64,000 bases of DNA. Origin: Paracoccus sp. IB05. GTDB taxonomy: Bacteria; Pseudomonadota; Alphaproteobacteria; Rhodobacterales; Rhodobacteraceae. How positions within the stretch are numbered: position 1 is the stretch's first letter; every line of letters starts with the position of its first letter. This document shows, one piece after another, positions 15,748-43,008 of the stretch. The notes beneath the pieces were generated by a model. It was given only the letters and a program-made list of their open reading frames with translations, did no database searches and was not told where the DNA came from. A program made the position numbers and the translations under genes. The stretch is from assembly GCF_016405985.1 (NCBI RefSeq), contig NZ_JAEFCF010000001.1, positions 62,001-126,000 of the forward strand, read 5' to 3'.

Positions 15748-18548
<2,801 letters not shown>

Positions 18549-18549
18549 C

Positions 18550-19590: not shown

Positions 19591-19599
19591 CGCGAAAGG

Positions 19600-21279: not shown

Positions 21280-21357
21280 GGTAAGAGACTCCCTCGGGGT
21301 GAAATGGCGGTCATTGCCGCCGTGATGGGCCGGCCTTGAGGCCAGAGTTTAACAGGT

Positions 21358-22266: not shown

Positions 22267-22316
22267 GCCAGTTCCCCTCCGGTTATCCCGGAAAATCCCC
22301 TTCCGCCCTGCCAAAT

Positions 22317-25406: not shown

Positions 25407-26270
25407 ATGAGCGACTTTCTGCAAATGGGCCTGACCGGCCTGAGCCTCGGCCTGATGTATGCGCTGATCGCCATCGGGTTGACGCTGATTTTCGGGGTGA
25501 TGCGCATCATCCAATATGCGCATGGCGAGATGTTCATGCTGGGCGCCTTTGCCCTGTATTACTGGCATGCAGAGCTGGGCCTGCCCTATTGGGCGGGGGT
25601 GGCGTTTTCCGCCGGGCTGATCTTCTGCCTTGGCGCGGTCTTGCAGGTGGTGCTGTTCAAGCCCTTGCAGGGTAAGAACATTCTCTACTCGCTCGCGGTG
25701 TCTCTGGGATTGGTCCTGATCATCTCGGGCTCGGGTCAGCTCCTGTTCGGGACCACGACCAAGGGCATCCCTTCCGCTGTTTCCGGCGGCATGCTGATCG
25801 GCGGCGCCTATCTGTCCTATGAGCGGATCGTGATTTCGGCGGTTTCCATCGGGCTGATCATCGCGCTCTGGGCCTTCCTGCGCCATTCGGTCACCGGCTT
25901 TGCCATTCGCGCCGTGGCCGAAGACCCGCAGACCGCCGCATTGCAGGGGATCCGTACCGACCGCATCCACTGGATCGCCTTTGGCATCGGATCGGCCATG
26001 GCGGCGATTGCGGGCTGTATGATGGGCACGCTTCTGTCGATCGTGCCGACCATGGGCTTTCTGGCCACGATCAAGGCCTTCATGATCGTGATCATGGGGG
26101 GGCTCGGATCGGTGATCGGTGCGCTGGTTGGCGGGCTGATCCTTGGCATGATCGACTCGGTGATCACCACCACCATCTCGGGCGATATCGCGATCATCCT
26201 GAGCTTCGTGGTGATCTTCCTGATCCTCGTCTTCCGGCCCTCGGGGCTCTTTGGCCAGAACTGGGACTAA
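25407..26270 (+). CDS. ABC transporter permease, LivH type
   Basis: This is one of two inner-membrane permeases of the Liv/Urt-type importer, 287 residues and about eight TM helices. It has LMYALIAIGLTLIFGVMRII near the N-terminus, the hallmark first helix of LivH proteins, and the EAA-like cytoplasmic loop AVAEDPQTAALQGIRTDRIH. It is followed 10 bases later by the LivM-type gene. Substrate is unknown. Confidence 0.94.
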   Translation: MSDFLQMGLTGLSLGLMYALIAIGLTLIFGVMRIIQYAHGEMFMLGAFALYYWHAELGLPYWAGVAFSAGLIFCLGAVLQVVLFKPLQGKNILYSLAVSLGLVLIISGSGQLLFGTTTKGIPSAVSGGMLIGGAYLSYERIVISAVSIGLIIALWAFLRHSVTGFAIRAVAEDPQTAALQGIRTDRIHWIAFGIGSAMAAIAGCMMGTLLSIVPTMGFLATIKAFMIVIMGGLGSVIGALVGGLILGMIDSVITTTISGDIAIILSFVVIFLILVFRPSGLFGQNWD

Positions 26271-26280
26271 GGGGGCGATC

Positions 26281-27261
26281 ATGGATAAATCAGACATCAT
26301 CGCCAGGCCGAACCGCCTTGTCTGGGGCGGGCTCCTCGCCCTCGCCCTCGTCGCACCGGCGCTGGTCGGCTTCGACCTCTACATGATCCATGTCGGCATC
26401 ACGATCAGCTTCAACGTGGCGCTGGCCACCAGCCTCTGGATGATCTGGTCGCTGGGCGTGATCTCTTTCGCCCATGCCGGTTTCATGGGGATCGGCGCCT
26501 ATGCCTCGGCGCTGGTGCTGACGAAACTGGGGCTTTCGATGTGGTATGGCCTGTGGATCGGCGCCGCAGTCTCTGCGCTATTCGCCATGCTGATCGCGGT
26601 GCCCCTGATGCGGACGCGAGCGGTGTATTTCTTCATGGCCTCCTGGGCGGTGGGCGAGGTGATCAAACGCAACTTCGCCTATTTCAAGGATTTCTTCGGC
26701 GGCTGGGACGGGGTCTTCGACATCAAACCGCCGGTCCTCGACCTTGGCTTCCTGCAAATCGACTTTGCGAACCGCATCGCCTATTACTATCTGGCGCTGT
26801 TCTTCGTCTCGCTTACGGTCTGGATCATCTACCGCATGAACGCGTCGCGCACCGGCACGATCTGGTGGGCGATCCATGAAAACGAGCTGCTGGCGCAACA
26901 TACCGGCATCAATGTCTTCCGCCAGAAGGTCGTCTGTTTCACCATCGCCTGCACCCTCGTCGGCGTGATCGGCGCGCTTTACGCGCATTACCAGACCTAT
27001 ATCAGCCCCAAAAGTTTCGACATCTGGAAGTCGGAATTCGCGCTGGTGCATCTGATCGTCGGCGGGCTGACCACAGTTGGCGGGCCGGTCGCGGGCGCGA
27101 TCTCTCTGACCATGGTCGATGAGGCTTTGCGCGCGACCGGCTATTTCCGCACCATCTTCTTCGGTGTCGTGCTGATCGCCTCGGTCCTGCTTCTGCCAGG
27201 CGGGCTTGAGACGGTCCCCGCCCGTATCCGCAAGCTCTTCAACCGCAATTCGCAGAAGTGA
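26281..27261 (+). CDS. ABC transporter permease, LivM type
   Basis: This is the second permease, 326 residues from the ATG at 26281, which is preceded by GGGGGCGATC; an ATG at 26251 inside livH is less likely. TM segments start with LVWGGLLALALVAPALVGFD, and the FAHAGFMGIGAYASALVLTK stretch is characteristic of LivM. The EAA-type loop reads WWAIHENELLAQHTGINVFR. It pairs with the LivH-like subunit to form the pore. Confidence 0.94.
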   Translation: MDKSDIIARPNRLVWGGLLALALVAPALVGFDLYMIHVGITISFNVALATSLWMIWSLGVISFAHAGFMGIGAYASALVLTKLGLSMWYGLWIGAAVSALFAMLIAVPLMRTRAVYFFMASWAVGEVIKRNFAYFKDFFGGWDGVFDIKPPVLDLGFLQIDFANRIAYYYLALFFVSLTVWIIYRMNASRTGTIWWAIHENELLAQHTGINVFRQKVVCFTIACTLVGVIGALYAHYQTYISPKSFDIWKSEFALVHLIVGGLTTVGGPVAGAISLTMVDEALRATGYFRTIFFGVVLIASVLLLPGGLETVPARIRKLFNRNSQK

Positions 27262-27270
27262 GGCCTCGTC

Positions 27271-28041
27271 ATGCATGAATTAGAGGCGCGTGGCCTTCAG
27301 ATGAAATTCGGCGGGGTGACCGCGATTGCCGGCCTCGACCTGACGGTCGAGGAAGGTGAGATCCGCGGGCTGATCGGCCCGAATGGCGCCGGCAAGACCA
27401 CGTTTTTCAACGCCTGTTCCGGGCGCTATCCGGTAACGGCCGGGGAAATCCGCTACCGGGGCCAGAAGATCAGCGGCATGAAACCGCATCAGATCGCGGC
27501 AGAGGGGCTGGTCAGGACCTTCCAGCATGTGACGCTGTTCAAACAGTTTTCCGTGCTGAAAAACGTGGTGGCCGGGAATTACCTCCATTCCCGCCATTCC
27601 TATTGGGGATCGCTGCTGCGCACCCGCAAAACGCGCGAGGCCGAGGCCGGATCGGTCGCCCGCGCGCGTGAAATCCTTGATTTCGTGGGGCTGGGGGCGC
27701 TGATGGATCAACAGGCCTCCACCCTGGCACATGGGCATCAGAAGATGCTCGGTATCGCCATCGCGCTGGCCGCCGAGCCGAAGATGCTGCTTCTCGACGA
27801 GCCCTGCGCCGGCATGAACAGCGATGAGAGCCGCGAGATGATCCATCTCGTCCGCCGCATCCGCGAAACCGGCATCACCATCATGCTGATCGAACATGAC
27901 ATGAAGGTGGTGATGGGGCTGTGCGACCGCATCACGGTCCTGAATTTCGGCAATGAGATCGCCGACGGCACGCCCGAAGCGGTGCGCGCCAATGCGCAGG
28001 TGCGCGAAGCCTATCTGGGGAGCCAGGCCCATGTTGCTTGA
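27271..28041 (+). CDS. ABC transporter ATP-binding protein, LivG type
   Basis: This is an ATPase subunit of the importer, 256 residues. Walker A is GPNGAGKTT, followed by the LivG-type ISGMKPHQIAAEGLVRTFQH. The signature is LAHGHQKMLGIAIAL, the Gln-His variant of LivG rather than LSGGQ. Walker B is MLLLDEPCAGM, and the switch His is in MLIEHDM. The last codons overlap the LivF-type gene by 11 bases, so the two ATPases are co-translated and probably form a heterodimer. Confidence 0.95.
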   Translation: MHELEARGLQMKFGGVTAIAGLDLTVEEGEIRGLIGPNGAGKTTFFNACSGRYPVTAGEIRYRGQKISGMKPHQIAAEGLVRTFQHVTLFKQFSVLKNVVAGNYLHSRHSYWGSLLRTRKTREAEAGSVARAREILDFVGLGALMDQQASTLAHGHQKMLGIAIALAAEPKMLLLDEPCAGMNSDESREMIHLVRRIRETGITIMLIEHDMKVVMGLCDRITVLNFGNEIADGTPEAVRANAQVREAYLGSQAHVA

Positions 28042-28738
28042 GATACGCGATCTGTGGGTCCATTACGGCAAGGTCGAGGCGGTCAAAGGCGTCTCGATGG
28101 CGCTGGAAGAGGGCGGCGTCATCACCCTGATCGGGGCGAATGGCGCGGGAAAAAGCTCGATCCTGAAGGCGGTTTCGGGGCTGGAAAAACCGTCGCGCGG
28201 CGAGGTGCGTTTCAATGGCCAGGTGATCACCGGGCGTCCCGCTCATGAGATCGTCGGCCTTGGCATCGTCAATGTCCCCGAAGGGCGCAAGCTCTTCAAG
28301 CTGATGACGGTGAAGGAAAATCTGCGTATCGGCGCCTATCTCGACAGCGACCGCGCGCGGATCGCAAAGGGGATCGAAGAGGTGTTCGACCGCTTCCCCA
28401 TCCTGCGCGAGAAACAGAACCAGCCGGCGGGAAAGCTTTCGGGCGGGCAACAGCAGATGGTCGCAATCGGTCGGGCGCTGATGGCAAGGCCGAAGGTTCT
28501 TCTGATGGACGAGCCGTCGCTGGGCCTTTCGCCGGTGATGATCGACGAGATCGCGGCGCTGATCCGTGAATTGCGCGCCTCTGGCCTGTCGATCGTGCTG
28601 GTCGAACAGAATGCAAGCCTTGCGCTGCAGCTTTCCGATCATGGTTACGTGCTCGAAACCGGGGCGATTGCGCTGCAGGGCCGGTCCGCCGATCTGCTGA
28701 CCGACCCCGAAGTCGCCCGCGCCTATCTCGGCGCCTGA
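28031..28738 (+). CDS. ABC transporter ATP-binding protein, LivF type
   Basis: This is the second ATPase, 235 residues from the ATG at 28031 (MLLEIRDLWVHYGKVEAVKG), inside the end of livG. Walker A is GANGAGKSS, the signature is LSGGQQQMVAIGRAL and Walker B is VLLMDEPSLGLSP, followed by the LivF-type IVLVEQNASLAL. The family-typical IVNVPEGRKLFKLMTVKENL is present. An earlier ATG in the same frame would overlap livG by about 90 bases and lacks homology. Confidence 0.95.
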   Translation: MLLEIRDLWVHYGKVEAVKGVSMALEEGGVITLIGANGAGKSSILKAVSGLEKPSRGEVRFNGQVITGRPAHEIVGLGIVNVPEGRKLFKLMTVKENLRIGAYLDSDRARIAKGIEEVFDRFPILREKQNQPAGKLSGGQQQMVAIGRALMARPKVLLMDEPSLGLSPVMIDEIAALIRELRASGLSIVLVEQNASLALQLSDHGYVLETGAIALQGRSADLLTDPEVARAYLGA

Positions 28739-28748
28739 GGAAAAGACG

Positions 28749-30074
28749 ATGAATGATATTCCGCCCCCCGGCGACGATTTCGCGATGCTCGGCTATGTCG
28801 ATCTCGACGGGCTGATCCGGGGCAAATACGCGACAAGTGCCAAGCTTAAATCCTGGCAGGAAAAGGGTGGTGCCTTTTGCTCGGTGGTGCTGGGCTGGGA
28901 CAGCCGCGACGCGCTGTATCAGAACCGGCATACCGGCTGGCACACCGGCTATCATGATGACCCGATCCGGGTGGTGCCGGGGCCGGGCCGGGTGATGCCC
29001 GGCGACGGGCGGCGGTTTCACCTGGTCGAATATGCCGATGGGCCGGGCGCGGCCCTTTGCCCGCGCAGGCTGGCGGGGCGGGTGCTGGACGAGGCCCGCG
29101 CCATGGGATTCACCGCGCTGGCCGGGTTTGAATATGAATTCTACGTTTTTCGCGAAACACCCGCCTCGGCGCTGGCCAAGGGCTATCGCGGCCTCACCCC
29201 CCTGAGCCCGACAACCGGCGGCTATTCGGTGCAGCGGATGGCGGTCGAAGACGGGTTCTTCTCGGGGCTGATGGCACTGGCGCGTCAGCTGGGAACGCCG
29301 CTGGAGGCGATCCATCCCGAAGCCGGTGAAGGCGCCATGGAATTCGCCTTCACGCCGTCAGAACCGCTGGAAGGCGCCGATCGGGCGGCGATTTTCAAGG
29401 CGTTTTCAAGGGCCTGGGGCAATCAGAACGGCCTGAGCCTGTGCTATATGGCAAAACCGCTGAACGGCTTGCCCGGCTGCGGTGGCCATACGCATCTGTC
29501 TTTGTGGCAAGGGGAGCAGTCGGCCTTCTATGACCCTGACGGCGAAGGTGGCCTGTCGCAGACCGCGCGCCATTTCATCGCGGGCCAGCTGAAATACATG
29601 CCTGAACTGCTGGCGCTTTACGCCCCGACGATCAATTCCTTCACCCGCCTTGCGCCAGGGTTCTGGGCGCCGACCGGTGCGACCTGGGGTTTCGACAACC
29701 GCACCTGCAGCCTGCGCGTCGTCGGCGACAGCGCGAAGTCGATCCGGGTCGAGATGCGGCCCCCGGCGGCGGATGCGAACCCTTATCTGGTGCTGGCCGC
29801 CGCTTTGGCCTCGGGCCTGCAAGGGATCCGCGAAGGCCTCGACCCCGGCCCGGCGCTCAAAGGCAATGGCTATGAGGCGGACCTGCCACCCGAACGCCGC
29901 TTTCCGGCCTCTCTCGCCGAGGCCGCCGCCCGATTGCGTGGATCGGATATGGCGCGCGCCTGGTTTGGTGACGCCTTTACCGACCATTTCGCCACCTCAC
30001 GCGAGGCAGAGGTCGCGGCACAACGCGCCTGGGTCTCGGACTGGGAACTGAACCGTTACTTTGAGATGATCTGA
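28749..30074 (+). CDS. Glutamine-synthetase-like ligase (PuuA/GlnT group)
   Basis: This is a glutamine-synthetase-fold enzyme of 441 residues that would ligate glutamate (or a related acid) to an amine using ATP. Motifs include YVDLDGLIRGKY at the N-terminus, metal ligands in GFEYEFYVF and EAGEGAMEFAFTPS, the ATP/ammonia region GLPGCGGHTHLSLW, and the Arg-rich substrate loop with NPYLVLAAALASG. Non-canonical GS homologues next to amine catabolic genes act as gamma-glutamyl-amine synthetases (PuuA, ethanolamine or isopropylamine ligases). Located between an ABC importer and B12 dehydratase genes, it may activate an imported amino alcohol. The acceptor is not identifiable from sequence. Confidence 0.82.
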   Translation: MNDIPPPGDDFAMLGYVDLDGLIRGKYATSAKLKSWQEKGGAFCSVVLGWDSRDALYQNRHTGWHTGYHDDPIRVVPGPGRVMPGDGRRFHLVEYADGPGAALCPRRLAGRVLDEARAMGFTALAGFEYEFYVFRETPASALAKGYRGLTPLSPTTGGYSVQRMAVEDGFFSGLMALARQLGTPLEAIHPEAGEGAMEFAFTPSEPLEGADRAAIFKAFSRAWGNQNGLSLCYMAKPLNGLPGCGGHTHLSLWQGEQSAFYDPDGEGGLSQTARHFIAGQLKYMPELLALYAPTINSFTRLAPGFWAPTGATWGFDNRTCSLRVVGDSAKSIRVEMRPPAADANPYLVLAAALASGLQGIREGLDPGPALKGNGYEADLPPERRFPASLAEAAARLRGSDMARAWFGDAFTDHFATSREAEVAAQRAWVSDWELNRYFEMI

Positions 30075-31246
30075 TGACCTACGCCCTGACTGCCCGCTGG
30101 ACCTACCCGACCACCATCCATGCCGGAGCCGGCAAGATCGCCGGTATTGGCGCCCATACCATTGCGGCAGGCATCCGGCGCCCGCTGGTTGTCACCGATA
30201 AGGGCCTGGCGCATCTGCCCTTTATCACCGCCGCGCTGGCGGCGCTGACAGCTGCCGGCCTTGCGCCCGCGCTGTTTTCCGATGTGCAGGGTAACCCGAC
30301 CGATCTGAACCTCGAAGCCGGGATCGAAGCCTTCCGCAAAGGCGCGCATGACGGGGTGATCGTGATCGGCGGCGGCTCGGCGATGGATGTCGGCAAGCTG
30401 GTCGCGCTGATGGAGGGGCAGACCATTCCGGTCTGGGATCTCGAAGATATCGGCGACTGGTGGACCCGTGCCGATGCCAACCGTATCCATCCGATCATCG
30501 CGGTGCCGACCACCGCCGGGACCGGGTCCGAGGTCGGGCGGGCGGCGGTTCTCACCAACACGACCGACCATACCAAGAAGATCATCTTCCACCCGAAGAT
30601 GCTGCCAGTCCTGGTGATCGGCGATCCGGAGCTGGCGCTCGGCCTGCCGCCCGCACTGACGGCGGCAACGGGCATGGACGCTTTCACCCATTGTTTCGAG
30701 ACCTTCTGCGTCGAGAGCTTTCATCCGATGGCGGATGGTATCGCGCTGGAAGGCCTCAGGATTATCCGCGACGCCCTGCCGCGCGCGGTGAAGAACGGCC
30801 AGGATCTCGAGGCGCGGACGATGATGTTTGCCGCCGCGATGATGGGGGGCGTGGCGTTCCAGAAAGGTCTCGGCGCGGTGCATTCGCTGGCGCATCCGCT
30901 GGGGGCGATCCATGACATCCAGCATGGTCTCGCCAATGCGGTGATCCTGCCCTATGTGGTCGCCTTCAACCGCCCGGCGATTGAGGCGAAAGTCGCCCGT
31001 GTCGCGCATAGCCTTGAAATCGAAGGTGGTTTTGATGGGTTCATGGCCTGGCTCCTCGACTTCCGACGCGAGCTGGGCATCCCGCATACCCTGGCGGAAC
31101 TTGGCGCGACGGCAGAGCGCGCGGATGAGATCGCCGCGAAAGCGCTGGCAGATCCTTCGACCGGGGCGAACCCGCGCAAAATGGATCAGGATGATTTCCG
31201 CCGCCTCTACCTCGCCGCGCTGAGCGGTGATCTCACGATTTCATAA
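30074..31246 (+). CDS. Iron-containing alcohol dehydrogenase
   Basis: This is a group III (DhaT/FucO-type) NAD(P)-dependent alcohol dehydrogenase, 390 residues. The nucleotide-binding motif is VIVIGGGSAMDVGKLVAL, and the metal ligands lie in GMDAFTHCFE and GAVHSLAHPLGAIHDIQHGLAN. PTTAGTGSEV is also typical. In diol-dehydratase pathways such enzymes reduce the aldehyde product or oxidise the diol. The start ATG overlaps the stop of the ligase gene (TGATG), so the genes are coupled. The ADP-binding site looks compatible with NAD, but cofactor choice is not certain. Confidence 0.92.
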   Translation: MTYALTARWTYPTTIHAGAGKIAGIGAHTIAAGIRRPLVVTDKGLAHLPFITAALAALTAAGLAPALFSDVQGNPTDLNLEAGIEAFRKGAHDGVIVIGGGSAMDVGKLVALMEGQTIPVWDLEDIGDWWTRADANRIHPIIAVPTTAGTGSEVGRAAVLTNTTDHTKKIIFHPKMLPVLVIGDPELALGLPPALTAATGMDAFTHCFETFCVESFHPMADGIALEGLRIIRDALPRAVKNGQDLEARTMMFAAAMMGGVAFQKGLGAVHSLAHPLGAIHDIQHGLANAVILPYVVAFNRPAIEAKVARVAHSLEIEGGFDGFMAWLLDFRRELGIPHTLAELGATAERADEIAAKALADPSTGANPRKMDQDDFRRLYLAALSGDLTIS

Positions 31247-31259
31247 GGGAGGAAGCCCG

Positions 31260-32039
31260 ATGTTCACCAGCCTGAATGGACAAAGCGCCATCGTCACCGG
31301 CGCGTCAAAGGGCATCGGGCGCGGCATCGCCCGCGCACTGGCCGCAAGCGGTGCGCAAGTGACCCTGGTCGCGCGCGGCATTCCGGCGCTGGAGGCGGTG
31401 CGGGATGCCATCCTCGCGGATCTGCCGGGCGCGAAACTGCGGCTTGCCAGCTGCGACATTGCCGACTGGGCCGCCGTGAAAGCCATGGTCGATGAGGCGG
31501 CGGCAGCGCAGGGCGGGCTCGATATCCTCTGCGCCAATGGCGGCATCTATCCGCAGACGACGATGGAGGCGATGGAGCCTTCCGAATGGGATCAGGTCAT
31601 GGCGGTGAACACGCGGTCTTCCTTTCTGGCCGTGAAAGCCGCGCAGCCGCATTTCCGGAAGGCGGGCGCGGGTCGCGTCGTGCTGACCTCGTCGATCACC
31701 GGCCCGATCACCGGCTATCGCGGCTGGACCCATTATGGCGCCTCCAAGGCGGCACAGCTTGGCTTCATGCGCTCCGCCGCGATGGAGCTGGCGAAGGATA
31801 AGGTCACCATCAACGCCGTTCTGCCCGGCAATATCATCACCGAAGGCTTCGAGGGCAACGGGCCGGAATACCTGGCCGCGATGGAGGCTTCGGTGCCGCT
31901 GGGGCGGCTTGGGACGGTCGATGACATCGCCAATGCGGTGCTGTTCCTCGCCTCGGATCTTGCCGGCTATATCACTGCGCAGACCATCGTGATCGATGGC
32001 GGCCAGGTGGTGCCGGAATCGCTCGATGCGATGGCATAG
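31260..32039 (+). CDS. Short-chain dehydrogenase/reductase (SDR)
   Basis: This is a classical SDR oxidoreductase of 259 residues from the ATG at 31260, which has an excellent ribosome binding site (AAGGGAGGAAG). The cofactor motif is TGASKGIGRGIA, the structural NGG motif is ANGGIYP, the catalytic Ser is in SSITGPITGYRG, Tyr-x-x-x-Lys is YGASK, and the tail has IDGGQVVPESLD. The residue after beta2 (VARG) favours NADP by family rules. It is one of two SDRs flanking the dehydratase, likely acting on a polyol, ketone or aldehyde intermediate. Confidence 0.9.
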   Translation: MFTSLNGQSAIVTGASKGIGRGIARALAASGAQVTLVARGIPALEAVRDAILADLPGAKLRLASCDIADWAAVKAMVDEAAAAQGGLDILCANGGIYPQTTMEAMEPSEWDQVMAVNTRSSFLAVKAAQPHFRKAGAGRVVLTSSITGPITGYRGWTHYGASKAAQLGFMRSAAMELAKDKVTINAVLPGNIITEGFEGNGPEYLAAMEASVPLGRLGTVDDIANAVLFLASDLAGYITAQTIVIDGGQVVPESLDAMA

Positions 32040-32051
32040 GAACAGACGCAG

Positions 32052-34346
32052 ATGTCAGACACCGTTCAGGTCAATCGCTGGCGCCGCTATTCTGACTGGG
32101 ACGAGCGCCCCTTGCGGCTGGATCGCTTCGCAAAGGAAGATCCGGCCAATGGCTTTGCCGCCTTCAAAAGCCCGGCCGATCCGAAACCGGGGCTGACGCT
32201 CAGCGGCGGCCGGATTGCCTCGATGGATGGCGTTCTGGCGCATGATTTCGACATGATAGACGCCTTTATCGCCGAATATCACCTCGACCCGGCCATCGCC
32301 CCCGAGGCGATGGCAATGGGTTCGGGCGAGGTCGCGCGGATGCTTGTCGATATGCATGTCCCGCGCGAGACGCTGGTGCGGCTGGCGCATGGCATGACGC
32401 CTGCAAAACTGGTCGATGTGGTGTCGCAGCTGAACGCGATGGAAATCGCCTTCGCCTATTCGAAAATGCGCCCCAGAAAGACCCCCGGCAACCAGGCCCA
32501 TGTGACCAATGCGAAAGACGATCCGCTGCAACTGGCCGCCGATGCGGCGGTGGCGGCGGGGCATGGGTTTGACGAGGTCGAGACCACGATGCGCGTCGCC
32601 CGCTGCGCCTGGTCGAATGCGCTGGCCTGCCTCGTGGGGTCGTCGGTCGGCGAATGGGGGACCCTGTTCCAGTGTTCTTCGGAAGAGGCCGAAGAGCTGC
32701 GGATCGGCATGGCGGGCTTTACCTCTTACGCCGAAACCGTGTCGGTCTATGGCACAGAACGCAGCTTTACCGATGGCGATGATACGCCCTGGTCCAAGGC
32801 TTTCCTGGTGGCCGCCTATGCCTCGCGCGGGATCAAGGCGCGCTGTACCTCGGGCGGCGGGTCAGAACTGCTGATGGGGTATCACGAGGCGAAGTCGCTC
32901 TTGTATCTCGAAGCCCGCTGCCTGTGTCTGCAACGTGGCATGGGGGTGCAGGGCACCCAGAATGGTGGCATCGACGGCGCCCCGATCACCGCATCGATCG
33001 CAGGCGGCATGCGCGAGATGATGGCGGAAAACCTGCTCGCGGTCTGGCTGGATCTGGAATGCGCATCGGGAAATGACGCGCGCGCAACCGAATCGGAAAT
33101 CCGCGTCGGCGCCAAGATCCTGCCCTATCTGATCGCGGGCTCGGACCTGATCTGCTCGGGCTTTGGCTCGATCCTGAAATATGACAATTCCTTTAACCCA
33201 TCGCTGTTCAACGGCGAGGAGATGGAGGATTTCCTCACGCTGCAACGCGATTTCGAGGCCGATGGCGGGCTGACCCCAATCCCCGAAGCCGAGGCGCTGT
33301 CGCTGCGCATCCGGGCAGTCGGGGCGATTTCGGCAGTATTGGAAGAACTCGGGCTGGCATCACCGACAGAGGCGATGAAGACCAGCGTCATCGCGGCATC
33401 GGGCTCGCGCGAGACACAGACCTTTTCCACCGGCGAGACGGCGCGGATCTCGGAAGAAATCCAGGCGCGCGGCATCAATGTGATCGACGTGATTCAGGCG
33501 CTGGCAAAGCGCGGCTTCCACCCCGAGGCCGAAAATCTTTTGAAAATCGTCAAGCTGCGGGTCTCGGGCGATTACCTGCAGACCTCGTCGATCATCCGCC
33601 AGGGCCGTATCCTTTCGGCGGTCAATGACCCCAATGATTACGCGGGCCCCGGCACCGGCTATCGGATGACCGAGGCCCGCCGCGATGAGATCAACGAGAT
33701 CCGCGACCTGATCGGCCAGTCCGAGGTGCTCTCGGACCAGGCCCGCCACCGGCGCGGCGAAAGCCGCCGCATCGCCTATGCGCCCCAGGGCGCGGCCCCG
33801 AAAGGCGCGGCCCCGCATGAGGTGGTGATCGGCATTTCGCCCGCCTTTGGCCTGCAACTTTACCAGACCACCGCCGGGCTGGCGCTCTCGGATGTGCTGG
33901 CGGCCCTGATCCGGGGCATCACCGCCGGGGGCGGCGTGGCGCGGATCCTCAGGATGCATCATACGGCGGATACGTCTTTTCTGGGGCTGACAGCGGCGGA
34001 AATGTCGGGTTCGGGCTTTGGCATCGGCATCCAGGCCAAGGGGACGGCGGTGATCCATCAGCGCGGCCGGATGCCGCATAACAATCTGGAACTCTTCTCG
34101 AACGCGCCGATCACCACCCTCGCGCATTATGAGAACATGGGCCGGAATGCCGCGCGATGGACCCATGGCGAACGCCCCGAGCCGGTCTCGGTGCCGACCG
34201 ATGGCCAGGCCCTCGGGGCGCGGTTCCACGCCCAGGTCGCGCTGATCTATGCGATTGAAACCGGCCTGACCGATCCGAACCGCGCGCCCGAAGACATCAC
34301 CGTGACCTTTCTGGATGCGGGCCCGGAGACAGGGGAAATGCCATGA
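32052..34346 (+). CDS. B12-dependent diol/glycerol dehydratase-type enzyme, fused large and medium subunits
   Basis: This is a coenzyme-B12 dehydratase of the PduC/DhaB family. Residues 1 to about 555 align without gaps to the PduC large subunit in the active-site region as recalled. Residues from about 593 (EVVIGISPAFGLQLYQ to SGSGFGIGIQAKGTAVIHQ) match the PduD medium subunit, joined by an Ala/Arg-rich linker. Relative to Klebsiella PduC, the active-site residues His143, Glu170, Glu221, Gln296, Asp335 and Ser362 are kept as His150, Glu177, Glu228, Gln303, Asp342 and Ser369. Pocket residues Ser301 and Gln336 are replaced by Asp308 and Ala343. The substrate is therefore probably not 1,2-propanediol or glycerol; an amino-diol is possible. 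No reactivating factor genes lie nearby. Confidence 0.9.
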   Translation: MSDTVQVNRWRRYSDWDERPLRLDRFAKEDPANGFAAFKSPADPKPGLTLSGGRIASMDGVLAHDFDMIDAFIAEYHLDPAIAPEAMAMGSGEVARMLVDMHVPRETLVRLAHGMTPAKLVDVVSQLNAMEIAFAYSKMRPRKTPGNQAHVTNAKDDPLQLAADAAVAAGHGFDEVETTMRVARCAWSNALACLVGSSVGEWGTLFQCSSEEAEELRIGMAGFTSYAETVSVYGTERSFTDGDDTPWSKAFLVAAYASRGIKARCTSGGGSELLMGYHEAKSLLYLEARCLCLQRGMGVQGTQNGGIDGAPITASIAGGMREMMAENLLAVWLDLECASGNDARATESEIRVGAKILPYLIAGSDLICSGFGSILKYDNSFNPSLFNGEEMEDFLTLQRDFEADGGLTPIPEAEALSLRIRAVGAISAVLEELGLASPTEAMKTSVIAASGSRETQTFSTGETARISEEIQARGINVIDVIQALAKRGFHPEAENLLKIVKLRVSGDYLQTSSIIRQGRILSAVNDPNDYAGPGTGYRMTEARRDEINEIRDLIGQSEVLSDQARHRRGESRRIAYAPQGAAPKGAAPHEVVIGISPAFGLQLYQTTAGLALSDVLAALIRGITAGGGVARILRMHHTADTSFLGLTAAEMSGSGFGIGIQAKGTAVIHQRGRMPHNNLELFSNAPITTLAHYENMGRNAARWTHGERPEPVSVPTDGQALGARFHAQVALIYAIETGLTDPNRAPEDITVTFLDAGPETGEMP

Positions 34347-34774
34347 CCACCAGACCGACCCGCCCCCTGACACGGGCCGATTTCCCCCTGGCCGAGACCG
34401 CGCCCGAAAAGGTGCGGGGCGCACGCGGCAAGCCACTTGACGCGCTGACGCTGGACGCGGTGATGGCGGGCGAGGTCACCATCGAAGACCTGCGCATCAC
34501 GCCGCAGGCGCTGCTGGCCCAGGCCGAGATTGCCCGTGACGCGGGCCGCGCGGCGCTGGCCGCGAATTTCGAACGCGCCGCCGAACTGGTCCATGTGCCG
34601 CAGGATCTCATCATGGAGACCTATGAGATGCTGCGGCCGGGGCGCGTGAAAGACAGCGCCACGCTGCGCGCCCGGGCCGCGATGCTGCGCCATGACCACG
34701 GCGCCGAAAAGCTGGCGGAGTTCCTCGAGACTGCCGCGATCCATTACCAGCGCCGCGGTCTGATGCCCGGCTGA
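34343..34774 (+). CDS. pduE: Diol/glycerol dehydratase small subunit (PduE/DhaE type)
   Basis: This is the small subunit of the B12 dehydratase, 143 residues. It contains the family segments DYPL-like RADFPLAETAPEKVR, then LDAVMAGEVTIEDLRITPQALLAQAEIARDAGR and YEMLRPGR, which match PduE/DhaE. The ATG overlaps the large/medium fusion stop by 4 bases, ensuring stoichiometric translation. Together the two genes encode the full alpha-beta-gamma enzyme, with alpha and beta on one chain. Confidence 0.92.
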   Translation: MTTRPTRPLTRADFPLAETAPEKVRGARGKPLDALTLDAVMAGEVTIEDLRITPQALLAQAEIARDAGRAALAANFERAAELVHVPQDLIMETYEMLRPGRVKDSATLRARAAMLRHDHGAEKLAEFLETAAIHYQRRGLMPG

Positions 34775-34787
34775 AAGGAGGTCCGCG

Positions 34788-35546
34788 ATGCGGCTTGACG
34801 GAAAAATCGCCTTTGTCACCGGGGCCGGATCGGGGATCGGGCGCGGCTCGGCCAAGGCGCTGGCCGGGGCGGGGGCGATGGTGGTGGTGACCGACCGCGA
34901 TGGTGCCGCCGCCGGTCTGGTGGCCGCAGAGATCACCGCCTCCGGCCAGCGCGCCGAGGCGATGGCGCTCGACATGACCGACACGGCTGCGATCCGCGCA
35001 GCGATCCATGAGGTCATCACCCGCCACGGGCGCATCGACGTGCTGCATTCCCATGCCGGCATCCAGATCGAAGGCCGGCTCGATCAGGTGAGCCCGGATC
35101 AGATGGATGCTTCATGGGTGATGAATGTGCGTTCGCATTTCGTGGCGGCACAGGCGGTGATCACGCAGATGCAGGCGCAGAAAAGCGGCTCGATCATCAT
35201 CACCGCCTCAAATTCCGGGGTGCAATATGATGCCGGGATGATCGCCTATGCGGTGACGAAACATGCCGCCGTCGCCATGGTGAAACAGATGGCGAAGGAT
35301 TTCGCGAAAGACGGCATCCGGGTCAATGCGCTTTGCCCCGGTTTCATCGACACCCCGTTCAACGCCGGGTTTGAACGCCAGATGGGCGGGCGGGCCGGGC
35401 TTGAGGCCTATATCTCCACCGCGATCCCCGCCGGGCGTTTCGGCACGGTCGAAGAGGTCGCGGCGGCGGTGCTTTACCTCGCCTCGGACCAGTCGCGTTT
35501 CGTCACCGGTCTCGCGCTGGTCGCCGATGGGGGGGAATGTCTCTGA
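34788..35546 (+). CDS. Short-chain dehydrogenase/reductase (SDR)
   Basis: This is a second classical SDR, 252 residues, with a near-perfect ribosome binding site (AAAGGAGGT) before the ATG. It shows TGAGSGIGRGSAKAL, Asp after beta2 (VVVTDRDG, favouring NAD), the HSHAGIQIEG variant of the NAG motif, a catalytic Ser in TASNSGVQYDAGMIAYAVTK with Tyr and Lys, and the tail TGLALVADGGECL. As last gene of the operon it likely oxidises or reduces a pathway intermediate. Confidence 0.9.
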   Translation: MRLDGKIAFVTGAGSGIGRGSAKALAGAGAMVVVTDRDGAAAGLVAAEITASGQRAEAMALDMTDTAAIRAAIHEVITRHGRIDVLHSHAGIQIEGRLDQVSPDQMDASWVMNVRSHFVAAQAVITQMQAQKSGSIIITASNSGVQYDAGMIAYAVTKHAAVAMVKQMAKDFAKDGIRVNALCPGFIDTPFNAGFERQMGGRAGLEAYISTAIPAGRFGTVEEVAAAVLYLASDQSRFVTGLALVADGGECL

Positions 35547-35643
35547 CAGGGCACTGAAGACGTCGCTGAGCGCGACCGGTTTCCCGTTCCGGCTGCTTTC
35601 GGCATTCCGCTTCGGGTCCGGTGATGCCGGAAGGAGCACTGCC

Positions 35644-35663
35644 TGACAGGTGTTTTCCTGTCA
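35644..35663. repeat. Short inverted repeat at the transposase-fragment end
   Basis: TGACAGG (35644-35650) pairs with CCTGTCA (35657-35663) around TGTTTT, right at the stop of the IS5-like fragment read on the minus strand. It may be a transcript terminator or part of an insertion sequence end. No matching copy at the other side was found. Confidence 0.3.
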
Positions 35664-36441
35664 CGCAGCCCGCCACCGGGGCGACCGGAAGAGGGTCCTG
35701 GCAGTCATCGCCAGGATGAGGCGCGAGCGCCCCCTTTCGATGCCGCAACAGAGGGTCTGTGCCATGCCCCTGACGATTCTGATCCGGCCGGGGGCCTCTT
35801 CGATCCGTTTGCGCTGCCTGATCGACAGAGCATAACCTTGTGTCGCGTTGTATGGCCGTCGAACGTTGGATATCGCGGTTTCTGCGCAGCGCGCGGCGCG
35901 ACGCGCGGCCTGGCGCCGGTCAGCGACAAACGCGACCGCATCGAAGCCCTTATCCGCCCCCGGGGTCAGCCGCCGGGGCGGATAAGGTAGCCCGTCGTCA
36001 CCACCGCGGATCTGAATGAAAGTCTCCCCAGAGATGATGGTCTCGTGGCCAATGATTGACTGAAGGCCATTGAAGTCGGTGCGCCCGTCGACATCGGCCT
36101 CTCCGATGCAAGACTCCCACGCCTTTGCGAAGCGGCGCGCGGCTTTTGACTTAGCGCGCGCGGTTGGCACAATGCCAGTGCCGGTCAGCGCGGTCGCCAG
36201 TGCCATCTTCTTCAGCTTGGTGAGGCGTCGCAGGCGTCGCGACCGCTCGAACTGCCGCGTCGGTGCTGCCGCCTCGTGGCGCAAGTCGGGGAAACAGGCC
36301 TCGGTTTCCCCGGCCATGACGCGGTCGATCCGCGTGAGACGGTCTTGGTCGATTTCGGCCGACAGCTTGCGGGTCTGCCCGAACCCGGTCACGGGGCCGA
36401 GTTCGAGACTGGCATAGTCCGGGGGTCCGGGGGGTATTCGC
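35661..36441 (-). pseudogene. Chimeric remnant: phage portal protein fragment joined to IS5-family transposase C-terminus
   Basis: The minus strand is open here but does not encode one known protein. The middle part (about 36212-35960) reads TGTGIVPTARAKSK, then DVDGRTDFNGLQSIIGHET and SGETFIQIR, resembling lambda-type phage portal proteins. The part from about 35957 to 35661 reads GADKGFDAVAFVADRRQ, then GYALSIRQRKRIEE and GMAQTLCCGIERG, the C-terminal end of IS5-family transposases. The region before 36212 is not assigned. Portal start and end, the transposase DDE N-terminal half and intact IS ends are all missing. It is interpreted as an insertion into a prophage remnant followed by decay. 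The two parts join in frame by chance. Confidence 0.75.
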
Positions 36442-38892
36442 TCAGCTTTTGATTTTCGCACCGCCGGGATCATACCAGGGACCGAACTGGACCCGTGCCG
36501 GATAGCGCTTCATCGCGACCTCGACCTCCCAGGTGCCTGTCTCAAGCCACTCCCTTTTGACACCATCGGGATGCGACACGTAGGCGAGGCCAAGCGAGGC
36601 GCCGACCCGGTGGCCATAGGCCCCGGACATCACCGATCCGACCAGTTCCCCGTCACGCGTCACCGGCTCGTAATGGAAAAGCATCGGCGCGTCGGCACCG
36701 CCTTCCAGCTGAACCTGCACAAGACGGCGGCGCACGGGGCCTTCGGATTTTTGCGCCAGCAGCGCGTCGCGGCCAATGAAGCCGCCCTCTTTCTCCAACG
36801 CCACAGCAAAGCCGAGACCGCCGTTATAAGGCGTGTCTTCCTCGCCGATGTCATGGCCCCAGTGCCGGTAGCCCTTTTCCATCCGGAGCGAGTTCAGCGC
36901 GAAATAGCCGGCGGGTTTCAGCCCGAGATCCCTGCCCGCCTCCGCCAGCACCTCCCAGACATGGCCTGCGAATTCCGCATCGATCAGCAGCTCGAACCCA
37001 AGTTCACCAACAAAGGTCAGGCGGCTTGCGCGCACCCTTGCATAGCCAAGATCGATCTCGCGCGAGGTGCCGAAGGGGAAGCCTTCGTTCGAGAAATCAT
37101 CGGGCGAGAGCCGCGTGAGCAGTTCGCGCGATTTGGGGCCCATCACTGCCAGCATCGGCGTGGCCGAGGTGATGTCGCTGATATGGACGCGTGCCCCTTC
37201 GGGCAGATTGCGGCGGAACCAGCTGATGTCGCGGCGCTGCGATACGGCCACCGTGATCACAAGGAACTCGGTTTCAGAGACACGGATCACCGTTACATCG
37301 GCCTCTATCCCGCCCCGCGGGTTCAGCCATTGGGTATAGACGATCCTGCCGGTCTCAACATCGCAGTTTCCGGCGCAGATCCGGTTCAGCGCTGACAGCG
37401 CATCCGGCCCTTCGACGCGGTATTTCACGAAGCAGCTGTAATCAAAGACCGAGACATTTTCGGCGGTGTTACGGCATTCGGCGGCGACATTCTTAAACCA
37501 GCTGGGCTGGTGGTAGGAATACTCGATCGTCGCGAGCTCCTCGGGCGTGCCGAAAAAGCCGGGGCGCTCCCATCCGGCGAGTTCGGTCATGAAGGCGCCT
37601 GCCTCCAGCATCCGGTCGTGGAAGGGCGAGCGCCGCACACCGCGCGCGGTTTCAAACTGTTTGCCCGGCCAGTGCATGTCGAAAAGCGTGCCGATGGTCT
37701 CGACCGAGCGGTCTTCGAGATATTTGCGGTTGCGCTGGAATTTCTGCGTCCGGCGCACATCGACATCGATCAGCTCGACCGGCGGATGGCCATCGGCGAT
37801 CCAGGAGGCCATCGATTTGCCGACCCCACCCGAGGACAGAATGCCGATCGAGTTGAAGCCGGTGGCCGAGAACAGGCCGCTGATCTCGGCGGTCTCGCCG
37901 AGGTGATAGCGGTTGTCGGGGGTAAAGGCTTCCGGGCCATTGAAGAACAGCTGGATCCCGGTTTTTTGCAGAACCGGCACCCGGTCCATCGCCATTTCAA
38001 GATAGGGGGAGATATGTTCGATATCTTCGGGGATCGCGTCAAAGCAGAAGCTTTCCGCGATACCTTTCTGACCCCAGGGTTTGGCGCCCGGCTCGAAAAA
38101 GCCGACCAGCAGCTTGCCGGCGTCTTCTTTGTAATAGCTCCACTCATCGGCCATGAACATGACCGGCAGATCGCGCTTAAGCTCGGGGATCGCCTCGGTC
38201 ACGACATAGAAGTGCTCGGCCGCATGCAATGGCAGGGTGACACCGATATCTGCGGCCAGATCGCGCGACCACATGCCGCCGGTGATCACCACCTTCGCGG
38301 CGGCGATCGGGCCGAATTCGGTCATCACGCCAGAGGCGCGGCCATTCTCATGCAGAATTTTGGTGACGGTGACCCCTTCAAGGATCTTCGCGCCGCCCAT
38401 CCTTGCGCCTTTGGCATAGGCCATGGTCACATCGGCGGGGTTCACCTGACCGTCATCAGGGAACCAGAAGCCGCCGACCAGCCCTTCGGTCGAGATCGGG
38501 TCCCAGCGTTCCTTTACGGCTTCGGGCGTCAGCGCCTCGACCGGCAGGCCGAAGTTGCGTCCCATCGAAGCGCCGCGCGCCAGCTCTTCATAGCGCGCCT
38601 GGGTTTTTGCCAGACGCAGCGACCCGTTGCGCTTGAAGCCGGTGGCCTGACCGGTTTCCTCTTCCAGCCGGCCAAAGAGCTCGCCGGTATATTGCGCGAG
38701 CTCGGTCATCCGCTGCGACGCGCGCAGCTGCGTCACCAGCCCGGCGGCATGCCAGGTGGTGCCGCAGGTCAGCTGTTTGCGTTCCAGCAGCACAACGTCG
38801 GTGATGCCGAGCTTCGTCAGGTGATAGGCGATCGAACAGCCGGCAATACCGCCGCCAATGATGACGACCTCTGCCTTCGATGGGATATGCAT
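36442..38892 (-). CDS. FAD-dependent dimethylglycine/sarcosine dehydrogenase-like protein with GcvT domain
   Basis: This is an 816-residue oxidoreductase of the DMGDH/SARDH family, which oxidises N-methyl groups of glycine derivatives and passes the one-carbon unit to folate. The FAD-binding motif is VVIIGGGIAGCSIAYHL, followed by GTTWHAAGLVTQLRASQ (the His-linked FAD region) in the N-terminal DAO domain (about 1-370). A FAO_M-like middle and an aminomethyltransferase (GcvT) domain from about 430 follow (LGYARVRASRLTFVGELGFEL, NSLRMEKGYRHWGHDI). It is the last gene of an operon with a ureohydrolase and an amino acid importer. The exact substrate is inferred, not demonstrated. Confidence 0.9.
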   Translation of the reverse strand: MHIPSKAEVVIIGGGIAGCSIAYHLTKLGITDVVLLERKQLTCGTTWHAAGLVTQLRASQRMTELAQYTGELFGRLEEETGQATGFKRNGSLRLAKTQARYEELARGASMGRNFGLPVEALTPEAVKERWDPISTEGLVGGFWFPDDGQVNPADVTMAYAKGARMGGAKILEGVTVTKILHENGRASGVMTEFGPIAAAKVVITGGMWSRDLAADIGVTLPLHAAEHFYVVTEAIPELKRDLPVMFMADEWSYYKEDAGKLLVGFFEPGAKPWGQKGIAESFCFDAIPEDIEHISPYLEMAMDRVPVLQKTGIQLFFNGPEAFTPDNRYHLGETAEISGLFSATGFNSIGILSSGGVGKSMASWIADGHPPVELIDVDVRRTQKFQRNRKYLEDRSVETIGTLFDMHWPGKQFETARGVRRSPFHDRMLEAGAFMTELAGWERPGFFGTPEELATIEYSYHQPSWFKNVAAECRNTAENVSVFDYSCFVKYRVEGPDALSALNRICAGNCDVETGRIVYTQWLNPRGGIEADVTVIRVSETEFLVITVAVSQRRDISWFRRNLPEGARVHISDITSATPMLAVMGPKSRELLTRLSPDDFSNEGFPFGTSREIDLGYARVRASRLTFVGELGFELLIDAEFAGHVWEVLAEAGRDLGLKPAGYFALNSLRMEKGYRHWGHDIGEEDTPYNGGLGFAVALEKEGGFIGRDALLAQKSEGPVRRRLVQVQLEGGADAPMLFHYEPVTRDGELVGSVMSGAYGHRVGASLGLAYVSHPDGVKREWLETGTWEVEVAMKRYPARVQFGPWYDPGGAKIKS

Positions 38893-38900
38893 GCCAGGTC

Positions 38901-39902
38901 TCAGCGGTTGGTGTGGATATAGTCGGCCATCAGCGAGAGCATCTCGAACATGACGACCATGGCGTTTTGCGCGGTGACCTTGTTCGGATTGTCCTTGGTC
39001 GGGATCAGGCAGACCACGTCGCCACCGACCACATTCAGACCGCGCAGACCCTGGAGCATACGGACGGCCTCGCCGATCCGGATGCCGGGATAGCCAGGCT
39101 CCAGGTTCGATGCCCCCGGCGCGTCGCAGGGGTCAAGGCTGTCGAGATCGAAAGTGATGTAAACCGGGGTATCGCCGATCCGCTCACGCAGGATCTCGAC
39201 CACGCCTTTCCAGCCGATCTCCTCGACCTCATCCATGCCGACGATCCGGTAGCCCAGCTCGTCCGAGGTGTTCAGCGAGCCGGCGGTTCCGACATTCGCA
39301 CGGATGCCGATCTGGGTCGATCTGGAGGCATCGACATGGCCTTCCTCGACCAGATAAGCGCCCCAATGCGCCGCCGAGCGCTTGTTGCCCAGCCAGTGCG
39401 GCAGATGCATCAGCGTGTCGGTATGGCTGTCGAAATGCACCAAAGCCACTTTTTGGCCGCCGGTCAGCGAGGAATGCGCGCCGGCGCAGGCCTTGACCAG
39501 CGGTCCGGTGATCGAATGATCGCCCCCCATGGCGACAACGCGGGTGCCGGCTTTCTCGAACTGCGCCGCATAGGCCTCGATATGCTCAACCGAGACGTCA
39601 TTGTTCATCGCTTCGGGCAGCGGGGTATCGCCGGCATCATTGATGGTGACGAGATCCCAGGGCGTGATCCCGAAGCGGCCATGGCTGCGGCGATAAAGGG
39701 CCGAGATATTCCGGACCGCGCGCGGGCCGAGATGCTGGTCGCGCTCGGTCGAGCCATTGCCGGAGCTGTGCGGCACGCCGATCAGGGCGATATCGGCAGC
39801 AGCGGGATCTTCGTTCCATTCGCAGCGGAAGAAGGTCGGGATACCATGCCAGTACCAGCGGCCCACATCCTTTTTGGCCTGTTCGATGTCGAAATCAGCC
39901 AT
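38901..39902 (-). CDS. Ureohydrolase (agmatinase/arginase family)
   Basis: This dinuclear Mn/Ni hydrolase would release urea from a guanidino compound. The 333-residue product starts at the ATG at 39902 with an AAGGAG ribosome binding site. Metal-binding motifs are GGDHSIT, HFDSHTD (Ser in place of the usual Ala) and FDLDSLDP. Family members include agmatinase, guanidinobutyrase, guanidinopropionase, guanidinoacetate hydrolase and guanidine hydrolase; sequence alone does not separate them here. The neighbouring DMGDH-like gene would fit a substrate that gives an N-methylated amino acid plus urea, such as creatine or a related guanidino acid; this is inference. Confidence 0.88.
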   Translation of the reverse strand: MADFDIEQAKKDVGRWYWHGIPTFFRCEWNEDPAAADIALIGVPHSSGNGSTERDQHLGPRAVRNISALYRRSHGRFGITPWDLVTINDAGDTPLPEAMNNDVSVEHIEAYAAQFEKAGTRVVAMGGDHSITGPLVKACAGAHSSLTGGQKVALVHFDSHTDTLMHLPHWLGNKRSAAHWGAYLVEEGHVDASRSTQIGIRANVGTAGSLNTSDELGYRIVGMDEVEEIGWKGVVEILRERIGDTPVYITFDLDSLDPCDAPGASNLEPGYPGIRIGEAVRMLQGLRGLNVVGGDVVCLIPTKDNPNKVTAQNAMVVMFEMLSLMADYIHTNR

Positions 39903-39967
39903 GTCGTTCTCCTTGAGGGTATTGGGCATTGCCGGGGGCGCGTGGCCCCTGCCAGTCAGCCTGGCGG

Positions 39968-40690
39968 TCAATGCGAGATCTGTGAGAGGAAGGCGCGCGC
40001 CCGGTCAGATTTCGGCGCAGCAAAGAACTCTTCGGGCGGGGCCACTTCGATGATGCGACCGGCATCCATGAAGACAACGCGGTCCGCGACCTTGCGGGCA
40101 AACGCCATCTCATGGGTGACGCAGATCATGGTCATGCCCTCGGCCGCCAGCTCGCCCATTACATCCAGCACTTCGCCGACCATTTCCGGGTCAAGCGCCG
40201 ATGTCGGCTCGTCAAACAGCATGACCTTGGGCTTCATGCACAGCGCGCGTGCGATGGCGACCCGCTGCTGCTGGCCGCCCGAGAGCTGGATCGGAAATTT
40301 CCAGGCCTGATCCAGGATATGGACCCGGGCGAGGTATTCCTCCGCCATCTTCCGCGCCTCGCGGTCGCTCACCCCGCTGGCGAGCTTTGGCGCGAGGATG
40401 CAGTTTTCCAGCACGGTGAGATGCGGGAAGAGATTGAAATTCTGGAACACCATGCCTGCGGTGCGCCGGACCTTCAGCACGTCTTTTGCCGCGCCCACCT
40501 CCAGCCCGTCGAGCCGGATTTCACCGCTGTCATGCGGCTCCAGATGGTTCACACAGCGGATCAGCGTGGATTTCCCCGAGCCCGACGGGCCACAGATCAC
40601 CACTTTCTCTCCCTGGGCGATATCAAGGCTGACATCTTTCAGCGCGTGGAAGGCGCCGTAGTTCTTATTGACGTTTTTCAGGCTGATCAT
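39968..40690 (-). CDS. Polar amino acid ABC transporter ATP-binding protein (GlnQ-like)
   Basis: This is the ATPase of a PAAT-type importer, 240 residues. Walker A is GPSGSGKST, the signature is [15 protein letters not shown] and Walker B is [12 protein letters not shown], with [20 protein letters not shown] following, typical of GlnQ/HisP. It begins 3 bases after the permease stop. It serves the operon with ureohydrolase and DMGDH-like enzymes. Confidence 0.95.
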
Positions 40691-40693
40691 CTC

Positions 40694-41419: not shown

Positions 41420-41438
41420 GGCCGTTCAGTCTTTGCCC

Positions 41439-42272: not shown

Positions 42273-42382
42273 GAAATTGCTCCCTGTTCTGATTTTCTCA
42301 GAGCGTGGAGTTGTTCCGCGATCCCGTCAACTGTAATTTCGCCATTTACGAACTTTTTTCTCCAATAACGTAATAAATTCGT

Positions 42383-42994: not shown

Positions 42995-43008
42995 AGGGGA
43001 GATACTCC

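Follow-up and report, generated by a model that had tools for sequence, protein, structure and literature searches.

What does a vitamin B12-dependent diol dehydratase act on when its large and medium subunits are joined in one chain and an aspartate replaces a serine of the substrate pocket? This question is raised by a gene at positions 32052–34346 of a 64,000-nucleotide stretch of the Paracoccus sp. IB05 genome (contig NZ_JAEFCF010000001.1, positions 62,001 to 126,000), hereafter called the window. Judged from its sequence, the product belongs to the adenosylcobalamin-dependent radical dehydratases of the diol/glycerol dehydratase family, within a fused branch that bears Asp301 in diol dehydratase numbering. 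The best explanation, which we hold with slightly less than even confidence, is that this branch would act on an amine-bearing vicinal diol. The gene context of the branch in two phyla favours such a substrate.

A fused dehydratase with an altered pocket

The enzyme is encoded by two adjacent genes:

32052–34346, + strand: fused large and medium subunit of a B12-dependent diol/glycerol-type dehydratase, 764 amino acids; D308 (=301), A343 (=336), R344 (=337), S380 (=373)
34343–34774, + strand: dehydratase small subunit (PF02287, 133 bits)

An earlier sequence-only reading had placed an alpha-beta fusion of 764 residues at 32052–34346, and it was right: the translated open reading frame (ORF) contains both Dehydratase_LU (PF02286; residues 9–554, 695 bits) and Dehydratase_MU (PF02288; residues 597–709, 74 bits). 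Together with PF02287, all three subunit domains of the B12 diol/glycerol dehydratases are therefore present across the two genes. The fused protein scores above the cut-off of the NCBIfam large-subunit model of the propanediol/glycerol dehydratase family (822 vs. 788 bits) and below that of the medium-subunit model (170 vs. 248 bits). Its AlphaFold model has a mean predicted local distance difference test (pLDDT) score of 79.9, and Foldseek searches with this model gave template modelling scores, normalised by target, of 0.91–0.92 for solved large subunits and 0.88–0.93 for medium subunits. The relatives in the PDB are glycerol and diol dehydratases. The best of them, 9vi2 and four more, are 754-residue chains whose labels cover the alpha and beta subunits, and we take these to be engineered fusions. 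The 9vi2 glycerol dehydrase chain aligns without gaps up to about residue 515, and the gapless alignment claimed in the sequence-only reading holds for residues 9–515 against three unfused relatives (47–49% identity).

Residues 10–558 of the fused protein match residues 3–552 of 1dio, which sets a numbering offset of 7 relative to diol dehydratase. D308 therefore corresponds to position 301 and A343 to position 336, so that the two pocket changes proposed earlier, Ser301 to Asp308 and Gln336 to Ala343, are borne out by both the offset and the alignment. The catalytic residues are kept, as had also been claimed: Q141, H143, E170, E221, Q296, D335 and S362, which we take to be the metal/substrate ligands of diol dehydratase, read QHEEQDS in the window enzyme and are intact in 104 of 104 rows in which all seven were readable, and in three more.

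Could Asp308 face the substrate? In the excerpts of PMC7674605 on which we draw here and below, the C3 hydroxyl of glycerol is directed at Ser301 in one conformer and at Asp335 in the other, and S301A and Q336A variants are tabulated with altered kinetics. Because the C3 hydroxyl is reported to face Ser301 in the template, position 301 is, by homology, probably substrate-facing. The AlphaFold model gives no confirmation of this orientation because the pLDDT is below 50 at residues 305–308, the stretch that includes Asp308, so that the placement of the residue in the model is of low confidence.

The window enzyme resembles Klebsiella/Salmonella PduCDE and glycerol dehydratase DhaB123 in its predicted fold, its metal/diol ligands and its large-medium-small order. 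Unlike these canonical enzymes, with their separate large and medium subunits and Ser301/Gln336, it is fused and carries Asp301, Ala336, a basic residue at 337 and Ser373, and no reactivase gene was found in its genome. Natural fusion of the large and medium subunits is already in print and is not new: naturally fused glycerol dehydratases of Mesorhizobium loti and Mycobacterium smegmatis have an alpha subunit with a beta-like extension (Liu et al. 2010, via PMC7674605). The window enzyme shares this extension with them, and the fused actinomycete rows collected here have Asp301. The excerpts of PMC7674605 call these fusions, compared here by description only, glycerol dehydratases, and contain neither a pocket analysis of them nor a link to amino alcohols.

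The Asp301 branch and its amino-alcohol genes

Is the Asp/Ala pair unique to the window? This idea was rejected, as the pair is spread through the whole clade, and a search for other fusions carrying it, which the sequence-only reading had proposed as a check, found them branch-wide in Alphaproteobacteria and Actinomycetes. Genome contigs scanned with a five-relative alignment yielded 73 loci. Matches were also found in 30 of 394 genomes from the Actinomycete class and in 8 of 385 from the window's class, the window's own genome being one of the 8. After duplicate removal there were 78 Asp301 rows, and three fused actinomycete copies read later brought these to 81: 54 from Pseudomonadota (mostly named Alphaproteobacteria or families thereof) and 27 from Actinomycetes. 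Seventy-six of the 81 are fused and five end at a contig edge. No fusion was seen in the 25 Ser301/Gln336 rows, one of which (L079) ends at a contig edge. Two fused rows carry Ser301/Ala336, namely L016 (8786–11143), from the window's class, and L065 (9992–12244), from a Chloroflexi metagenome-assembled genome. Among the 93 records from a plasmid search, two belong to the Asp branch (65–66% identity), and most of the matches listed were enteric copies.

A tree of 97 large-subunit rows, built by a quick method with a midpoint root and with long branches flagged, has three well-supported groups consisting of 48 alphaproteobacterial Asp, 22 actinomycete Asp and 27 Ser rows; the two fused Ser/Ala rows branch beside unfused ones. 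The tree leaves out the duplicates L011–L013 and L015, L014 (a single copy) and the incomplete or broken rows L017, L055, L056, L060, L081, L083, L088, L142 and L143, and L141 is labelled unfused in it merely because its contig ends. In L017 (9875–11008) and L083 (9671–10804), the match to the dehydratase ends after about residue 252 in mid-contig, and these relatives are apparently truncated or frame-broken copies.

The pocket residues were counted after leaving out the duplicates L011, L012, L013, L015, L017 and L114. With 54 Pseudomonadota rows sharing it, Asp301 is more than a chance substitution. The 54 Pseudomonadota rows, some of which are near-identical (e.g. L053/L058), have Ala336 in 52 cases and Thr336 in two, and Arg, Lys and Ala at position 337 in 51, two and one. 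The 27 actinomycete rows have 22 Ala and five Asn at position 336, and Leu at 337 throughout. Furthermore, the change of Met373 to Ser is conserved among the alphaproteobacterial rows; like the basic residue at 337, it was absent from the sequence-only reading.

What genes accompany this pocket? Many other Asp-type relatives lie near genes for a homologue of SDR1 (the short-chain dehydrogenase encoded next to the window dehydratase), an APH-family kinase, a class III aminotransferase and an isochorismatase-family hydrolase (28/50 loci). The importer of these relatives includes a binding protein (27/50 loci) and an ATPase distantly like PotD/PotA. Of the 51 Asp-type loci that were clustered, 13 have a cluster of shell proteins, with PF00936 confirmed for one of its members, and the window enzyme is 77–80% identical to the copies in the shell-gene loci L021, L022, L080 and L090. 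The closest solved relative of the L021 kinase is 6ef6 (E 5e-87), which we take to be the M. smegmatis 1-amino-2-propanol kinase. The aminotransferase has putrescine and acetylornithine aminotransferases as its closest solved relatives and might, at a guess, act as a phospho-lyase. With a short-chain dehydrogenase, a kinase, a class III aminotransferase and an aldehyde dehydrogenase beside the dehydratase, many relatives resemble the RMM2 loci (Axen et al. 2014, PMC4207490, drawn on in part) and the M. smegmatis aminoacetone-utilisation genes.

We counted as a partner any aminotransferase, kinase or SDR1 homologue in the fetched locus that passed fixed identity and length thresholds. The references were the aminotransferase and kinase of L021, which therefore matches itself, and the SDR1 of the window; the broken copy L083 and the window itself were left out of the counts. 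Loci shorter than 18 kb miss partners more often, and totals are therefore given for all loci and for those of at least 18 kb. At least one partner was found in 38 of 50 alphaproteobacterial Asp loci (31/33 at ≥18 kb) and in 18 of 25 actinomycete ones (12/14), counts that are not independent events, as the Asp loci include near relatives. Near unfused Ser/Gln genes, partners were found in none of 22 loci (0/17 at ≥18 kb), all from Actinomycetota, Bacillota, Thermodesulfobacteriota or Spirochaetota and none alphaproteobacterial; near fused Ser/Ala genes, they were found in neither of two loci.

Taken singly, in the long alphaproteobacterial (n = 33) and actinomycete (n = 14) loci, the aminotransferase is present in 19 and 11, the kinase in 20 and 6 and SDR1 in 28 and 6, respectively. 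When the identity threshold was dropped and an E value of 1e-20 used, the Ser/Gln loci still gave 0/17 for all three partners, and one Ser/Ala locus (L065) had a short-chain dehydrogenase at 34% identity. In two genomes that hold both a fused and an unfused gene (G766 and G782), all three partners accompany the fused gene and none the unfused one. The aldehyde dehydrogenase was rejected as a discriminating partner because, without an identity threshold, a remote relative lies near 11 of 17 Ser/Gln genes. These results show a link, drawn from gene context and new here, between the Asp301 branch and a set of amino-alcohol genes.

The window operon and the reactivase

In the window itself, the operon encodes, in this order, a Liv-type importer, a glutamine-synthetase-family protein, an iron alcohol dehydrogenase, SDR1, the dehydratase and a second short-chain dehydrogenase, SDR2. 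The genes around those of the dehydratase are as follows:

24082–25305, + strand: periplasmic binding protein of a branched-chain-amino-acid-type ABC importer, LivJ-like (Pfam Peripla_BP_6; 96% identical to that of L018)
25407–28738, + strand: permeases and ATPases of the same importer, LivH-, LivM-, LivG- and LivF-like, named by resemblance from the ORF table (25407–26270, 26251–27261, 27271–28041 and 27953–28738)
28749–30074, + strand: glutamine-synthetase-superfamily ligase (PF00120, 322 bits)
30074–31246, + strand: iron-containing alcohol dehydrogenase, like methanol/1,3-propanediol dehydrogenases (PF00465/PF25137; PDB 8zrl, 4fr2, 3bfj)
31227–32039, + strand: SDR1, a short-chain dehydrogenase (best PDB matches 6ci8/6ci9, 275 bits, E 4e-81)
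34788–35546, + strand: SDR2, second short-chain dehydrogenase (PF13561/PF00106)

SDR1, directly upstream of the dehydratase, is related to 6ci8/6ci9, which were deposited under the name 3-oxoacyl-ACP reductase and which we take to be the M. smegmatis 1-amino-2-propanol dehydrogenase. The window thus has the aminopropanol-dehydrogenase-type enzyme of the RMM2/aminoacetone loci. Unlike those loci, it has just this homologue, the kinase and the class III aminotransferase being absent from its locus.

The sequence-only reading had argued for an amino-diol or amino-alcohol substrate from an amine-ligase homologue and an amide-type importer in this operon, and both arguments turned out to be weak. 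The glutamine-synthetase-family protein is below the cut-off of every NCBIfam model that it matched; glutamate-methylamine ligase 9qur is among its PDB matches, though not the best. The LivJ-like binding protein scores far below the NCBIfam branched-chain and urea cut-offs. Homologues of the ligase, the iron alcohol dehydrogenase and LivJ lie near the dehydratase in 4, 6 and 5 of the 50 alphaproteobacterial loci, so that the window-type context is rare, and an SDR2 homologue (at least 50% identity) is near it in 9 of 50. The amine interpretation is partly supported, more by the relatives in two phyla than by the window's own operon.

L038 and L018 share the gene order of the window; L018, which is annotated as Pseudogemmobacter bohemicus, matches it over 13.2 kb with 88% DNA identity. 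Apart from the absence of SDR2 from L020 and of the ligase from L057, L020 and L057 also have the window-type order, and the LivHMGF-like order is the same in all four. The DNA similarity between the window and L018 ends at 35547, where L018 continues with an AraC-family regulator weakly like EutR, of which tblastn found no match in the window. Right after SDR2 comes an ORF (35661–36473, − strand) that weakly matches parts of phage portal, relaxase and IS5 transposase models. Further on, 36442–43027 (− strand) encodes an FAD oxidoreductase/GcvT fusion, an arginase-family enzyme, an amino-acid-type ABC importer and a regulator below the PuuR cut-off, possibly a separate amine or guanidine catabolic cluster. 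Upstream and divergent from the dehydratase operon, 17577–23879 (− strand) encodes an oligopeptide-type ABC importer, an alpha/beta hydrolase and a D-aminopeptidase-like protein.

How are the fused enzymes kept active? Diol dehydratases are repaired by an ATP-driven reactivase, which is proposed to swap its beta-like subunit for that of the enzyme (PMC7674605). Nothing above the cut-off of the Pfam reactivase model (DdrA, PF08841) was found in the window's genome, in five further Asp-type genomes of its class or in 27 genomes reached through the 50 alphaproteobacterial loci (L048 left out), one of which (G408) has a single 19-bit fragment below the cut-off. Two of the 27 (L035 and L036) repeat genomes of the class scan, which leaves 31 different alphaproteobacterial Asp-type genomes. 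The two fused Ser/Ala genomes had no match either. On the other hand, PF08841 was found in 16 of 17 genomes with an unfused enzyme and, as a relative, in 29 of 29 actinomycete genomes, including all 27 with a fused Asp-type enzyme. The actinomycete scores are about 115–235 bits, apart from fragments in G513, vs. 474–558 for most copies in unfused-enzyme genomes, and divergent reactivase relatives lie near the fused dehydratase in L155, L160, L161 and other actinomycete loci.

A second profile, made from 19 reactivases (17 of them divergent), likewise found none in the window's genome. It gave only 19–22 bit fragments (G303, G148, G400, G405 and G417) in 29 alphaproteobacterial Asp and two Ser/Ala genomes, and strong matches, all with E below 1e-138, in five of five positive genomes that had been left out of the profile. 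Only seven genomes of the reactivase search have a stated completeness, of 99–100%. The idea that fusion alone goes with reactivase loss was rejected because all 27 actinomycete genomes with a fused Asp-type enzyme carry a PF08841 relative.

Candidate substrates

What reaction would suit such an enzyme? As the ligands are retained, a vicinal diol, HO-CH2-CH(OH)-R, would be bound at the metal ion as in the relatives and would undergo the usual radical 1,2-hydroxyl shift, giving a 3-substituted aldehyde and water. A cationic group on R would lie against Asp301, in the room opened by the changes of Gln336 to Ala and Met373 to Ser. Asp301 by the third carbon would suit an ammonium group, and amino alcohols are what the context points to; 3-amino-1,2-propanediol is therefore a reasonable first candidate, and in this simplest case the product would be 3-aminopropanal. 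SDR1 would connect this amino-diol with the corresponding amino-ketone. In other members of the branch, related amino alcohols and the reactive aldehyde would be processed by the kinase and the aminotransferase-fold enzyme, together, in some loci, with a microcompartment and an aldehyde dehydrogenase. No paper on 3-amino-1,2-propanediol with a diol dehydratase was found in the open-access library that was searched, and absence there is not absence in print.

Several observations weigh against an amine-bearing substrate. The genome of the window has no shell protein (PF00936) and no close aminotransferase homologue (the best, at 33% identity, is outside the locus), and its kinase homologue is on another contig. 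Four long Asp loci (L023, L054, L154 and L156) have none of the three partners, and G812 holds both dehydratase types with partners beside neither. The importers differ among the relatives, two plasmid-borne ones (Shinella and Agrobacterium) having carbohydrate-type importers. Arg/Lys337 could neutralise Asp301 in the Alphaproteobacteria, and what the partner genes have in common with the dehydratase could be an aldehyde route, with propanal from two sources, and not a substrate. A survey, consulted in part, lists Paracoccus yeei TT13 as having an RMM2 locus and mentions its growth on 1,2-propanediol (PMC8156839); the genome paper of this strain found no pdu operon and deduced a route to pyruvate instead.

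It is also conceivable, although unlikely, that the enzyme is an ordinary 1,2-propanediol/glycerol dehydratase in which Asp301/Ala336 and the fusion lower suicide inactivation in lineages that lost the reactivase, propanal from the diol and from an amino alcohol feeding one aldehyde dehydrogenase. In the Klebsiella oxytoca enzyme, the rate constant of inactivation by glycerol (kinact) falls from 1.15 per min to 0.22 with S301A and to 0.081 with Q336A, and inactivation in lysate was slower for a glycerol dehydratase with fused alpha and beta subunits (PMC7674605). The lack of a reactivase over the cut-off in the 31 alphaproteobacterial genomes is consistent with this, as is its lack in the genomes of both fused Ser301/Ala336 enzymes. 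So are the reading of Axen et al. that RMM2 leaves its dehydratase unused or else is bifunctional (PMC4207490) and the presence of a propanediol dehydratase gene among the eight genes changed in an M. smegmatis mnoSR mutant under carbon limitation (PMC11303327, likewise drawn on in part). However, the pocket does not simply follow reactivase loss, as all 27 actinomycete Asp-type genomes carry a reactivase relative. The S301A/Q336A double mutant, moreover, has a 40-fold higher Michaelis constant for 1,2-propanediol and gains little against glycerol inactivation (0.66 vs. 1.15 per min; PMC7674605). An Asp beside a methyl group is also unfavourable.

A longer neutral polyol or diol, such as a tetritol, for which Ala336 and Ser373 would make room and with whose extra hydroxyls Asp301 would form hydrogen bonds, seems to us improbable. 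The redesign of a diol dehydratase for longer 1,2-diols reportedly concerns the S301A/Q336A pair. The title of that study, on a redesigned enzyme acting on such diols, is cited in PMC7674605, and carbohydrate-type importers adjoin the Shinella and Agrobacterium copies; however, the partner genes of most long loci are the amino-alcohol set, and no polyol-specific gene set recurred in the loci, where no search aimed at one was made. We give still less credence to a zwitterionic or anionic substrate, in which the alphaproteobacterial pair of Asp301 and Arg/Lys337 would bind an amino-acid-like or gamma-glutamylated diol and the glutamine-synthetase-family ligase would supply the glutamyl group in window-type operons. 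The basic residue (53 of 54 Pseudomonadota Asp rows vs. Leu337 in 27 of 27 actinomycete ones) and the ligase gene of four loci, including the close relative L018, fit such a pair. However, few loci of the branch have the ligase, Asp301 is unchanged where it is missing, and such a pair presumes a 337 side chain directed into the pocket.

An amine-bearing vicinal diol could be taken one step further, to a proposal that we consider possible but rather doubtful: the Asp301 branch would be a B12-dependent amino-diol dehydratase that has been overlooked as the signature enzyme of amino-alcohol loci of the RMM2 type in two phyla, and its alphaproteobacterial members would have dispensed with the ATP-driven reactivase through the fusion and a pocket that disfavours suicide inactivation.

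For the family, the amine reading provides a testable substrate for a dehydratase branch that family models call merely propanediol/glycerol dehydratase, and it reopens the published reading that RMM2 compartments leave their dehydratase genes unused. Furthermore, the branch offers natural fused B12 dehydratases from genomes without a detectable reactivase, and resistance to inactivation is an aim stated in a review of glycerol dehydratase engineering (PMC7674605).

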